This document shows positions 245-62,003 of a stretch of DNA of 64,000 nt, in pieces. The notes below the pieces were generated by a model. That model did not search any database. It was not told the origin of the DNA and saw only the letters and a program-made list of their open reading frames with translations. Numbering within the stretch: position 1 is the first letter of the stretch; every line of letters begins with the position of its first letter. The stretch is from positions 145,001 through 209,000 of the forward strand of contig JAPFBL010000583.1 of the NCBI GenBank assembly GCA_026182355.1, read 5' to 3'. Both the position numbers and the translations under genes were made by a program. Source of the stretch: Hermatobates lingyangjiaoensis (lineage: Eukaryota > Arthropoda > Insecta > Hemiptera > Hermatobatidae).

Positions 245-660
245 ATAACCTTTTTATAACCAACTATAATGTTTCTGAGGTAAAATGGATAAACCGACAA
301 AAGTCTCCACACAAATGAAGTTTTTATTCAACGCGTTTCGAACACTTTGTGTTCATCATCAGGAAGACACTATAATACAAATTATGTCTAATCAGTTACA
401 AAATTAGAGTGAAATAATAAAATTCAATTAAGAGAATTCAAGACATACCCAAGGATGTGGTACTGACGGGTTGGTCCAGTGAAAACAACTAGTAGGAAAC
501 AGATCCGTTGTGAAAGAGTGGGGATAGGAATTTAGGAGATAAGGTGAGAAAGGCGTCGGGTATGCTTGAAAACCGTTAACTGGATAAAATGGATAAACCA
601 ACGTTTGTTGGTTTATCCATTTTACCTCAGAATGAGTAAATACCACACAATTACGGATTG
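245..660. repeat. Inverted PLE terminal fragment (ACGCGU family)
   Basis: A sequence reading gaggtaaaatggataaacc near 275-294 recurs inverted near 610-628. Between them lies a minus-strand hammerhead (322-368). The outer right part (starting near 630) is a family tail that also appears near 7340, 25320, 27860 and 28685. I read it as a decayed head-to-head copy of one Penelope-like terminal region. The 428-646 open frame crosses this repeat and shows no protein family. Confidence 0.55.
322..368 (-). ncRNA. Hammerhead ribozyme, ACGCGU stem III
   Basis: On the minus strand CUGAUGA (356-362) is followed by an extra U, then stem II GAACAC/GUGUUC, GAAA (336-339), the self-complementary ACGCGU and U17. 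Stem I begins UUC/GAA. All core positions match the hammerhead consensus. Related copies lie at 27680-27724 (intact) and near 7250 (decayed). Confidence 0.75.
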
Positions 661-784
661 CACAACTAATGATTTATAATGTTTCTTATAAAAAGGTTCT
701 CTCGCTTATAAGAAGTGTAAGGTTCTATATATACAAATTATGGAAATACAAATATATCCCAGCAATAGTGACAACACGTCCACA
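661..784. other. AT-rich spacer, no gene seen
   Basis: No coding or structured signal was recognised here. Confidence 0.5.
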
Positions 785-1320
785 TTTTGGTGGGAGTTCC
801 ACTTTTTGGTATACTTTCCCACGACCCGCTGATTTCTAAAATTATCCCCTGTTTTAGAAAATATCTAAAACATTAATATCTAAAATATCTAAAGCATTTC
901 ATATTTTAAATATACTGTAAAAATATATTACCCATTATTTATTAAGTATTATGATGAATATAAAAAAATAAAAAAGCATATAAAATGCATGCAAATTTTC
1001 TTGAAACATGTTAAGAATTGTTATAATAACTGCTTGGAATATCTTAAAGATTGTACAATTTTGAAGTTCCGCTTTTTGGTATATTGTCCCGGGTACCGCC
1101 GATTTTTAAAACTGTCCCGTTTTTTGAGAAAATATCTACATATCTTATTTGAAATGTACTGTAAAAATTTATTTCCTATTATTTAATATTACGGGTAAAT
1201 ATAAAGAAATAAAAAAAAGCGTAAAAAATTACATAAAATGCATGCAAATTTTCTTGAAACATGTCAAAAATGTTTATAATAACTGCTTAGAATATTTTAA
1301 AGAATGGACAATTTTGAAGT
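785..1320 (+). repeat. Two tandem diverged copies, about 250-270 bp
   Basis: A block beginning ttttggtata near 803 and containing atgcatgcaaattttcttg near 986 is repeated from about 1074 and 1238. The copies differ by substitutions and small indels. The short open frames at 989 and 1149 are the same repeat translated twice and are not genes. The repeat family is not recognised. Confidence 0.7.
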
Positions 1321-1357
1321 TATTAAAAATTTTTATTGGATATTAAAAAAGTCCAGG

Positions 1358-1398
1358 GTAACCTGAAGAAGAACACAACGTGTTTGAAACGTTGTTTT
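1358..1398 (+). ncRNA. Hammerhead ribozyme, ACGU stem III
   Basis: CUGAAGA (1363-1369), extra A, stem II GAACAC-AAC-GUGUUU, GAAA (1386-1389), palindrome ACGU, U17 and stem I AAC/GUU are all present. Similar to the copy at 33530-33576. Confidence 0.7.
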
Positions 1399-1615
1399 TA
1401 TTAAACATCTAAATGTTGAAATCTTTTGGAATATGTGGAAAAATCTTTTGGATTTATTAGTAATATTTGCGAAAACGATCTTTTTGATGAGGTATCATCA
1501 TTGGTAAAAAGATATGTTACAGGTGAAAAAATTAAATGTTGATTGTCTGCAAATGTGGTAATAGACAAAAATATGGACGGAGTTATTCCTTCATTTTAAC
1601 AAGAATGTTATGTAT

Positions 1616-1830
1616 ATTATTAATATGGCAAACCGTCATACCTCGTACGATGATGTTGGAGTCGTTGGAGCGCTGTCGGACGTTGTCCATCTTCGATCGC
1701 AACTAATCTACTACTAAGTTTACCTCACAGTAGGTTTGTTGCGATCGAAGATGGACAATGTCCGAAAGCGCTCCAACGATTCCATGATCATCTTACGAGG
1801 TATAACGGTTTGCCATATTAATAATATAAA
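1616..1830. repeat. Head-to-head inverted repeat, variant hammerhead
   Basis: Arms 1616-1702 and 1738-1825 are near-perfect inverted copies around a 35-nt spacer. The right arm reads UCGAAGA (1745-1751), extra U, stem II GGAC-AAU-GUCC, GAAA, AGCGCU and C17, so only the first two core bases deviate. In the left arm GAAA is changed to GACA. A single arm of the same family lies at 18366-18472. Confidence 0.7.
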
Positions 1831-1866
1831 TCATACTAAATTCATGCATTTTTTCATTACCACAGA

Positions 1867-2108
1867 GGTTAGTATCATTAATATTAAAATTATAGTAATC
1901 CGTCTTACCTCGTACTCTGCTGCTGAAGTTCTTAGATCGGTTTCGGGCGTCACCCATCTTCAACAAGAACTGATCAACTAGAACTGAGTTCTAGTTGATC
2001 AGTTCTTGTTGAAGATGGGTGACGCCCGAAACCGGTTTAAGAACTTCAGCAGCAGAGTACGAGGTAAGACGGATTACTATAATTTTAATATTAATAAATC
2101 ATACTAAC
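1867..2108. repeat. Near-perfect palindrome with two UUGAAGA hammerheads
   Basis: Arms of about 118 bp meet near 1985. Both arms keep UUGAAGA, extra U, stem II GGGU-GAC-GCCC, GAAA, ACCGGU and a legal cleavage base. Core position 3 is U instead of C. The open frame at 1736-1981 only spans this repeat and the previous one. Confidence 0.75.
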
Positions 2109-2504
2109 CTCATTGATAATAATATGTATAAAATAATATTATTTGTTCCTTCCAGGAACAAATGCAGCAACAAAACATGTTTTTTCTGGTATCAATAAAA
2201 TATAGACAACTGAAAAAACGCAATTGAACAGTAAAATTTTTAAAATCTATATTAAGAGCAAAACATAAATTGACCAATTTATGTGAAATATTTCACGACA
2301 TTTTAATAAATGATCTGAATCTATTGCAAAGTATTCATTACGATAAAAAGTATGACCTTGAAAGAAAATTATAATTTTTTTTAAATATATAATTTAATGT
2401 GATTGAAAGTCATGATGTTTAAATTATTATTTTTTACAAATATTTTTATAGTTAACAATAATTAATAATAAATACATTTTTGTACAAATATATGAATGTA
2501 TACA

Positions 2505-2893
2505 ACACGAAATAAACACTTTTTCTTCTTCTTGGAATTTGGTCAGGGTTAATATATGGAATCACCGTTTCGTCTTTATTTTAAGACATCCTCAGGGCTA
2601 TAAAGTAACAAAAAACAATGGACATTTGTCATATCTGCTTTACAATCATCATTAGAAATCAAAAAACGTACTTACTCAAGGCTAGCTTCTAATTCGGAAC
2701 CAACAAAACCGTTATCTGTCACTGCATGTGCTGCTGCCAAGCGACATTTATTGAAAATAAATATCCATTGTTTTTTGTTAGTTTATAGTCCCAAGGAAGC
2801 CTTAAATATGAATAAACACGAAACGTTGGCGAAAAGGTGATTCCATATATTAACCCCGACCAAACTCCAAGAAGAAGAAAAAGTGTTTATTAG
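2505..2893. repeat. Inverted PLE-like ends with 220-bp spacer
   Basis: The left arm (2505-2580) and right arm (2800-2893) are inverted copies beginning and ending with the same aagaagaagaaaaagtg stretch. The left arm carries a minus-strand CUGAGGA, stem II GUCUU/AAGAC and GAAA core (2568-2595). The right arm has lost the CUGANGA box. Confidence 0.65.
2560..2600 (-). ncRNA. Hammerhead-like core (CUGAGGA)
   Basis: CUGAGGA, extra U, GUCUU/AAGAC stem II and GAAA are present. Stem III reads ACGGU and is not a clean palindrome, so activity is doubtful. Confidence 0.45.
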
Positions 2894-60690: not shown

Positions 60691-60699
60691 AAGTGACAT

Positions 60700-61215
60700 T
60701 GCATTCCTCGTAAAATAACTCTTTGCATACAGAATCTAACGGGAGTTGCCAAGTTAGGTGAAAGGTCGGACTTTATGAGCTTAATCTGACCTGGTACTTA
60801 AATAAACTTCATCCAATACAGTATTACTGTAAACTTAATTTAAAGTGCAAACACTATTAAACGCCACATGATCTCTACTGCTTACTTCCATTTTGAATGC
60901 ACAAGCATTTCACGTGTTTATTGTAATAAATTACTGAGATATTTATATGGTCATAACAGTTTAAAAAAAATAATGAATTAAACAATTTATAGAATTGATA
61001 AAAATATTAAAATAACCTAAATTTAATGCTATTACCATTTAACATTAATGCTTCAGGAATTAAACATTAAGTTAGCATAATTAACTATTAAACAATTAAG
61101 TAAAATAAATAAAACCTAATAAAACTAATTAAGCTAACATTAATTAAGACTAAAAGAATTGTAGTAAATATTATACATGATAACAGCTATAGAGGTTACA
61201 ATGTCTGGTTACATA
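60700..61215. other. AT-rich, nothing recognised
   Basis: No gene or repeat identified. Confidence 0.4.
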
Positions 61216-61311
61216 ACGCACACACACACAGATATATATATATATAAAGATTTCACATAAACACGTGAAATAACAATCAATGATCAAACCACAATAAGAA
61301 ATGGGAAAACA

Positions 61312-61356
61312 AGACTAAGATCTTTCAACCGTAACAAGCGGTCTTCGTCAGAGTCA
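61312..61356 (-). ncRNA. Hammerhead ribozyme, AGAUCU stem III
   Basis: Complete core and stem I. Confidence 0.83.
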
Positions 61357-61388
61357 AAAACCCAACCAGTAAGAGTCAGTTGGGTTTT

Positions 61389-61433
61389 TGACTCTGACGA
61401 AGACCGCTTGTTACGGTTGAAAGATCTTAGTCT
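61389..61433 (+). ncRNA. Hammerhead ribozyme, AGAUCU stem III
   Basis: Complete core, GACU (61390-61393) with AGUC (61429-61432). Confidence 0.83.
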
Positions 61434-61589
61434 TGTTTTGACATTTCTTATTGTGGTTTGATCATTGATATATATATATATATATATATATATATATATA
61501 TATATATATATATATAAGATATCTCCCCACGTCGGAGGACGGAGCGCGAATATATTTCGACGGATTCAATAACATATCGACTGTTTGAT

Positions 61590-61795
61590 ATAATAGGTGT
61601 GTTATCTAATCGGGTTTGGTCAAATTTTCTAGGTTCAAAAACCAAAGTAACATTGGTTTTAAAAAATTAAACCAATTAATTTTAAAATTTAAAATTAAAA
61701 GGTTTTAAAATAAAATCGAAAGATCGGCAATGAGAGTTTAATTTTTGAACCTAGAAAATTTGACCAAATCCCGATTAGATAACACACCTATATAT
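61590..61795. repeat. Inverted ends, diverged GAAACGUUGGC-type family
   Basis: ggtgtgttatctaatcggg and its inverse flank a centre rich in A/T. GAAAGAUCGGC replaces GAAACGUUGGC. Ends in (TA)n. Confidence 0.65.
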
Positions 61796-61952
61796 ATAAA
61801 TGTATATATTATATAATGTATAATATGTATATATAATGTATATATGTATATCCATTACATATGTATGTGTGTGTATATAATATAACGTATATAATAATCT
61901 GCGCTCTGTTCTTCGACGTGGTGAGATCTCTATCACTTCGTCCTCTCTTCTA

Positions 61953-62003
61953 GTCTACTCCTGATGACGAACAACAGTTAGTTCGAAATATTGAATTCTG
62001 TAA
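61953..62003 (+). ncRNA. Hammerhead ribozyme, AUAU stem III
   Basis: CUGAUGA (61961-61967), extra C, GAAC..GUUC with a longer loop, GAAA (61984-61987), AUAU, U17. Confidence 0.72.

Follow-up and report, generated by a model that had tools for sequence, protein, structure and literature searches.

Dense minimal hammerhead motifs in a 64-kb window of the Hermatobates lingyangjiaoensis genome, best read as remains of Penelope-like elements

A stretch of 64,000 nucleotides from the hemipteran insect Hermatobates lingyangjiaoensis (assembly GCA_026182355.1, contig JAPFBL010000583.1, positions 145,001 to 209,000 of the forward strand), hereafter the window, contains hammerhead ribozyme motifs on both strands in numbers far above chance. 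They belong to a known kind, most plausibly the dimer-type hammerheads of Penelope-like elements (PLEs), and what stands out is their density and their details. In our reading many PLE families have probably left short 5'-end pieces in the window, a graveyard of remnants that each have a minimal dimer-type hammerhead near the 5' end of the RNA and would have been inserted as two target-primed complementary DNAs (cDNAs). The points that merit attention at the scale of the genome are the density, a near-constant extra nucleotide in the ribozyme core, a rule by which one arm of a pair carries a tail, and possible footprints of cleavage at insertion ends. An initial annotation, made from the letters alone, had already pointed to PLE-associated hammerheads of a known class at a striking density and variety. 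This view is upheld by the excess of the motif over chance, the covariation of its stems and a PLE coding sequence with hammerhead units at both ends; the near-universal extra nucleotide and the head-to-head pairing are additions to it.

Minimal hammerheads with an extra base

The motif was first defined by a strict descriptor comprising CUGANGA, zero or one extra nucleotide, a stem II of at least two pairs, GAA, a palindrome of 4 or 6 nt as stem III, H17 and a stem I of at least three pairs. Twenty-seven matches were found over both strands of the window, whereas 200 dinucleotide-shuffled versions had a mean of 0.01 and never more than 1; a set of 100 permuted cores had no match on the real window, and among nine altered GAA tails eight gave none and AAA gave three. 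With an intact core and stem II but stems I and III not required, there were 39 matches (mean 0.03 in 60 shuffles), and allowing one core mismatch raised the number to 60 (mean 2.4, maximum 7, in 20 shuffles). Six GGCC-family loci, which the energy rule of the core search had missed because their stem II has 2 bp, were added by hand, bringing the totals to 45 loci with an intact core and 66 with at most one core mismatch. The 27 strict copies and 45 intact cores thus have the CUGANGA and GAA strands, stem II, the A15.1-U16.1 pair and H17 of a hammerhead, and self-cleavage after H17 is predicted for them. The earlier estimate of about 50 hammerheads, about 40 of them intact and lying on both strands, agrees well with these counts, and the three units that it singled out are present at 40541-40579 (-), 54734-54773 (+) and 9679-9721 (+).

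A covariance model built from 14 copies outside the AGAUCU family (family A, the commonest) gave 80 window matches at E<=1 against about one expected, its own 14 source copies being bound to match; the AGAUCU copies, which had been held out, scored E of about 0.1-0.9 each and are individually marginal. The exact family A pattern was not found in IMG/VR and prokaryote genomes, a search from which records of the insect's own genome may be left out.

Support for the fold came from 17 family representatives (18 rows were folded and the second copy of family K was left out), among which pairing exceeded that of shuffled partners by a wide margin at pairs 2 and 3 of stem II and at pairs 1 to 3 of stem I. 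Pair 4 of stem I did not exceed the shuffles, and pair 1 of stem II hardly varies and is uninformative; the length of stem III was set by hand for each family, which favours stem I pairing. In an alignment of 14 representatives the stem II score for pairing and covariation was reached by none of 500 shuffles and was abolished by sliding the partners, while by two of the five measures, those of double-sided pair changes and of further pair types, the alignment was not above the shuffles. In both sets, stems I and II are kept as pairs rather than as letters. Thirteen of the 17 representatives have a palindromic stem III without a loop (AGAUCU, AGGCCU, ACAUGU, ACGCGU, ACGU, AAUU and AUAU), which is an architecture of the dimer type; in three others stem III is not a clean palindrome (AAUC, AUUAU and ACGGU), and ACGUGU is palindromic only with a G-U pair. 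Of the stem III families listed in the initial annotation, AGCGCU (1610-1831) has, by eye, a degenerate core, and in the ACCGGU copy at 2009, as in its partner at 1963, C3 has become U.

Between A9 and the first stem II pair there is exactly one unpaired nucleotide in 27 of the 27 strict matches and in 38 of the 39 intact-core matches. The constancy of this base was revealed by the canonical descriptor, which without an extra nucleotide has a single match in the window. Among the 17 representatives the base is C in seven, U in seven, A in three and never G, and the pair that follows it is G-C or G-U; it would thus appear to be a constant part of these ribozymes. The plus-strand hammerhead of chrysanthemum chlorotic mottle viroid (CChMVd) carries an extra A at the same position and is active; replacing this A10 by U makes trans-cleavage 3-4-fold faster, and C or G in its place impairs activity strongly (PMC3705267). 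If the families of the window behave like the viroid, those with U and A would be active and those with C crippled.

Where the extra base is U, A9-U-G reads AUG. In family C (element 7481-8371, with hammerheads at 7617-7654 (-) and 8169-8206 (+)), this triplet opens a 64-codon frame, MVNVHRN...EEGLLPTFT, which runs from 8178 to 8370 on the plus strand up to (TA)n, and the predicted cut lies 26 nt from the A of the ATG. The hammerhead core of this family would accordingly overlap a likely start codon. We take the frame to resemble the N-terminus of a PLE protein, a likeness for which the Pfam and homologue searches gave nothing.

Several copies illustrate the range of the motif. Strict matches lie at 327-365 (-; stem III ACGCGU, extra U after A9), at 1360-1396 (+; stem III ACGU, extra A) and, for family A, at 54300-54341 (+). 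Stem III AGGCCU occurs at 11823-11862 (-; 2-bp stem II), at 47742-47779 (-; C17) and at 54734-54773 (+; extra C, 2-bp stem II), and family F cores with an extra C at 24389-24422 and 61956-61998, both on the plus strand. In a further family A copy, 57931-57975 (-), one C in the 3' strand of stem II has become U, which leaves a G-U pair, and stem I has 5 bp.

Head-to-head pairs and their unequal ends

When the nearest inverted partner of each of the 66 loci was determined, 34 diverged from it, 12 converged and 20 had none within 1.6 kb; at an identity of at least 70%, 29 were divergent and three convergent, counted by eye. It is largely because of these head-to-head pairs that the motif occurs on both strands. 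The arms of a pair end differently: one stops short against AT-rich DNA, and the other extends further by a tail of about 33 nt, in which there is often a small hairpin. This holds in 19 of 20 scored pairs (P 2e-5 at even odds). The tails were scored by eye, and the 20 belong to 30 pairs hand-picked from a list of palindromes and the list of family A units; the unscored pairs are 35201 and 44559, with one arm cut, 1610, 1856, 2511, 41760, 27649, 50446 and 12410, whose membership is unclear, and 9264, whose ends are unreadable. Two of the scored pairs, 30777 and 30952, may have arisen by local duplication.

The tail may lie on either arm. It is on the right arm of the family C element, of a family E element (38233-38525) and of an element with degenerate hammerheads of the AUAU kind (11883-12093), and on the left arm of the family G palindrome (38896-40164), whose arms are 97% identical, and of the family A element at 9533-9758 (hammerheads 9607-9649 (-) and 9679-9721 (+)), whose right arm has none and whose centre reads ACTGAATCAGT. 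Other head-to-head elements of family A lie at 61239-61469 (hammerheads 61313-61355 (-) and 61390-61432 (+)), at 30911-31285, where 157 nt of filler (31041-31197) separate the heads, and at 50865-51118, which has a different centre holding a 15-mer twice. Centres thus differ among family A copies, and the pairs therefore seem to form at insertion. A pair with stem III ACGU and C17 was found at 9329-9423 (9329-9366 (-) and 9386-9423 (+)). The palindrome at 1856-2120 contains the hammerhead-like units 1963 (-) and 2009 (+) with the C3 change mentioned above; in the plus unit stem I is, by eye, long and stem III reads ACCGGU.

We read the head-to-head pairs as two target-primed cDNAs joined at the ends that correspond to the RNA 5' end. 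A ribonucleoprotein (RNP) would cut both strands of a (TA)n target, and each target 3' end would prime reverse transcription at an internal start site shortly downstream of the hammerhead; judging from the ends, one would use a proximal start site and the other a site about 33 nt further 3', past the small hairpin, the difference being the tail. Both short cDNAs would extend back across the hammerhead as far as the 5' end of the RNA, where their joining would give an insert with two diverging hammerheads. Two cDNAs joined in this way would place the motif on both strands inside palindromes. The protein of a PLE from an anole cleaves and extends both target strands in vitro, starting internally at two sites that bound a tail (PMC11167929).

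The same palindromes could arise by self-priming, in which one template folds back at its end so that both arms derive from a single molecule and the hammerhead has no role in insertion. This was proposed by Arkhipova et al. (2013) for Penelope of Adineta vaga and argued from palindromic junctions (PMC3846280), and it would suit the near identity of many arms (99.5% at 9570-9758 and 98.1% at 7481-8341) and the private variants that the arms at 31040 and 31198 have in common. A fold-back copied to its end should, however, leave equal ends, whereas 19 of the 20 scored pairs differ by the tail, and two separate initiations are preferred on this ground. The 5' ends of the arms can also differ (30865 against 30871; coding sequence behind 52405 against 53951 at position 55 of the family A query), a difference that a fold-back with a large loop might also produce. 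Two cDNAs from separate start sites are favoured as an explanation of the ends, and we consider self-priming unlikely.

A more specific version of the two-cDNA scheme would give the palindromic stem III a function. It would pair two PLE template RNAs in a dimeric RNP, both RNAs being copied at one break from two start sites; the paired hammerheads would trim one template, and the overlap with A9-U-G would couple cutting to the loss of the start codon, turning a message into a template. We regard this as rather doubtful; were it true, each head-to-head insertion would be the record of an RNA dimer.

Short palindromes in several copies with (TA)n beside their ends also recall DNA transposons with terminal inverted repeats (TIRs), such as miniature inverted-repeat transposable elements (MITEs), or foldback elements that have captured a hammerhead-like sequence. 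Such elements should have equal inverted ends, but 19 of the 20 scored pairs do not; the family A centres vary among copies as if made at each insertion, and one family A pair encloses a PLE gene. This reading, which we think very improbable, was rejected for the unequal ends. The retrozymes of animals are tandem repeats of 150-450 bp with type I hammerheads, spread through circular RNAs. Like them, the units of the window are small, AT-rich, mostly non-coding and of several families in one genome (compare PMC7229834). The three long arrays of the window (unit of 43 bp, 18650-19343; unit of 55 bp, 22304-23952; GA-rich, 59675-60682; 82 tandem-array rows in all), however, hold no hammerhead locus, 30847 and 31022 are the sole close same-strand pair of one family noticed, the arrangement is head to head instead of tandem, and stem III is mostly a loopless palindrome. 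The retrozyme reading was rejected for lack of tandem hammerhead arrays, and its chances are, in our estimate, very small.

Most of the inserts border (TA)n, in which target-site duplications would be indistinguishable.

Coding sequence, 5' ends and opposing results

The link to PLEs is most direct in family A. A broken PLE coding sequence for a reverse transcriptase (RT) and endonuclease occupies 52567-53951 (-) in several frames (E 5e-96). It has 124 relatives at E<=0.001, and among the 120 listed many are annotated with PF26215, PF00078 or PF01541, some with RT and GIY-YIG domains, so that the single-gene combination typical of PLEs is represented through this one broken copy. The whole insertion spans 52275-53987. 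At its 3' side lies a family A unit with a tail (hammerhead 52349-52391 (-)), and at 53950/53951 a head-to-head joint leads to a plus-strand family A unit. The element in which the gene lies thus has a family A unit at each outer end, so that these units are the ends of a PLE. Further PLE coding fragments lie near 27.4, 28.4, 39.5, 54.5 and 63.5 kb. At the right edge of the window (63419-63998) such PLE-like fragments lie on both strands.

In families C and K and in the unit at 38736 the hammerhead runs, by eye, into similar-looking frames that end at (TA)n. The family K element (40411-41365; hammerheads 40541-40579 (-) and 41171-41209 (+)) includes a frame with YVDD, RT-like by eye, which joins the plus head. 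Families E to J lack such frames, and most of their copies have GTAAGT/GTGAGT-like donors just after the hammerhead (8464, 36492, 38317, 40082, 50410 and others); PLEs with introns are known (PMC3846280). The inverted units and their tails correspond to the pseudo-long terminal repeats (pLTRs) with an optional tail of about 31 bp that are typical of PLEs; an intact arrangement of direct pLTR, open reading frame (ORF) and pLTR was not seen in the window.

Insertion ends offer a second kind of evidence. Along the family A query (positions q), 20 of 28 copies start at q1-q8, at TCAGT, a start that looks initiator-like; TCACT is named as initiator-like in the Adineta vaga Penelope paper (PMC3846280). 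Five of the eight internal starts among these copies fall at q53-q58, and the predicted cut lies between q53 and q54 (P 1e-4). The minus-strand copy at 51166-51243 has its 5' end exactly at the predicted site (q54), that at 52158-52196 (-) starts near it (q56, or q54 if one inserted nucleotide is allowed), and the plus unit joined to the PLE insertion starts at q55. In the pair at 30736-30903 the minus arm is full (q1-131) and the plus arm begins at q58, 4 nt past the first base behind the cleavage site. The family A hammerhead at 28176-28218 (-) is preceded by sequence common to the unit at 52405. The 5' end of family A would thus usually be the initiator-like TCAGT and in a minority the cleavage site, the latter perhaps deriving from template RNAs that had already cleaved themselves.

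In the scan pooled over families, the family A row at 44020 (at -1) resembles a duplicated flank and 38571 is a low-identity match. Four of eight family A starts fall at 0 to +4 when 44020 is omitted (P 0.001), and four of seven when both are omitted (P 0.0007). The cleavage-site signal is confined to family A. The C-type base of many other families, which is expected to cripple cleavage, is compatible with missing footprints and proves nothing.

A number of results weigh against a graveyard of PLE 5'-end pieces inserted as two cDNAs. Rfam, whose hammerhead models the initial annotation had proposed as a check, did not recognise the motif: the scan of the window gave no match at gathering thresholds, and none of the 66 matches at E<=10 was to a hammerhead family, the miRNA-named ones being under gathering scores and the strongest of them sitting on palindromes of the window. 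The hammerheads of the window depart from the standard arrangement in which the 10.1-11.1 pair directly follows A9, and C, the extra base in 7 of the 17 representatives, is detrimental in the viroid. Minimum free energy (MFE) folds of monomers and homodimers mostly lack the hammerhead as their minimum and are not used as support. Among the pairs, both arms of 36216-36640 bear a tail, and at 41408-41667 the state of the right arm is ambiguous. The anole PLE adds two difficulties: in vitro its start sites are used equally on the top and bottom strands, which predicts no strict rule of one long and one short arm, and its hammerhead did not cleave without protein while insertion was independent of cleavage (PMC11167929).

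The coding and end evidence has its own counterweights. Pfam scans of the RT piece itself and of the other coding pieces yielded neither an RT nor a GIY-YIG domain, and families other than A are putatively assigned to PLEs by the anatomy of their unit ends. For the family C frame there was no Pfam match at the cut-off and the homologue search was empty, which lowered our confidence in the overall reading slightly. When all families are pooled, 5 of 38 later starts fall in 6 of 98 positions (P 0.08), or 4 of 38 in 5 of 98 (P 0.13), and outside family A none of 29 later starts lies at -1 to +4 of the site; within family A, the start at 44018 shifts from q53 to +6 with the query used.

Apart from the hammerheads, the window has several features of its own. 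The 43-bp array at 18650-19343 has about 16 copies with 92% matches and no hammerhead locus, and the 55-bp array at 22304-23952 has 30 copies with 98% matches, the lowest GC content of the window and a strongly negative GC skew. About 1 kb of GA-rich low complexity, with a 212-bp period in part, lies at 59675-60682, where long ORFs are probably spurious. At 17581-18072 lies an ORF that resembles gag, with cysteines that by eye are of the CCHC type, and that may belong to a non-LTR retrotransposon; it had no Pfam match and no relatives in the homologue search.

Comparison with known systems

The genome of the coral Acropora measures several hundred megabases. More than 6000 motifs have been reported for it as a whole, and the 45 intact cores in 64 kb found here are far denser. 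Minimal hammerheads of PLEs were described by Cervera and De la Peña (2014) and by Lünse et al. (2017), as summarised in the reviews PMC7761336 and PMC6155905. Like the copies in the window, they have a CUGANGA/GAAA core and a short or absent stem III and are dispersed or lie in PLE pLTRs; the extra nucleotide in 38 of 39 intact cores may set the present copies apart. CChMVd shares one extra nucleotide between A9 and G10.1, but there it is A10 of a single viroid ribozyme, whereas in the window it is near-constant across families and may be U, C or A (PMC3705267). The metazoan retrozymes are likewise type I hammerheads of animals in short AT-rich repeats; they form tandem arrays, in contrast to the head-to-head or single pieces of the window (PMC7229834).

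The Penelope element of Adineta vaga resembles the window in inverted head-to-head pLTRs, palindromic junctions, a 31-bp tail on one inverted pLTR and the TCACT start, and differs in its low copy number and in the self-priming model proposed for it, as against the dozens of short pieces with unequal ends seen here (PMC3846280). In PAc, the Poseidon PLE of Anolis carolinensis, the hammerhead cut lies 26 bp downstream of the start codon, as in family C, a tail of 30-40 bp separates the internal RT start sites and the targets are AT-rich (PMC11167929). Head-to-head inserts in which a single arm has the tail (19 of the 20 scored), together with family A 5' ends at the cleavage site, distinguish the window from PAc, for which no RNA-seq reads were found to end at that site. 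The role of the hammerhead in Penelope elements has been called a mystery in a review (PMC7761336). Read as fossil traces of where templates ended and where copying started, insertion ends would offer a cheap genomic test of that role; in this window, family A shows an excess exactly at the predicted cut, and the one-tail rule favours two cDNAs per insertion over the self-priming proposed for A. vaga.

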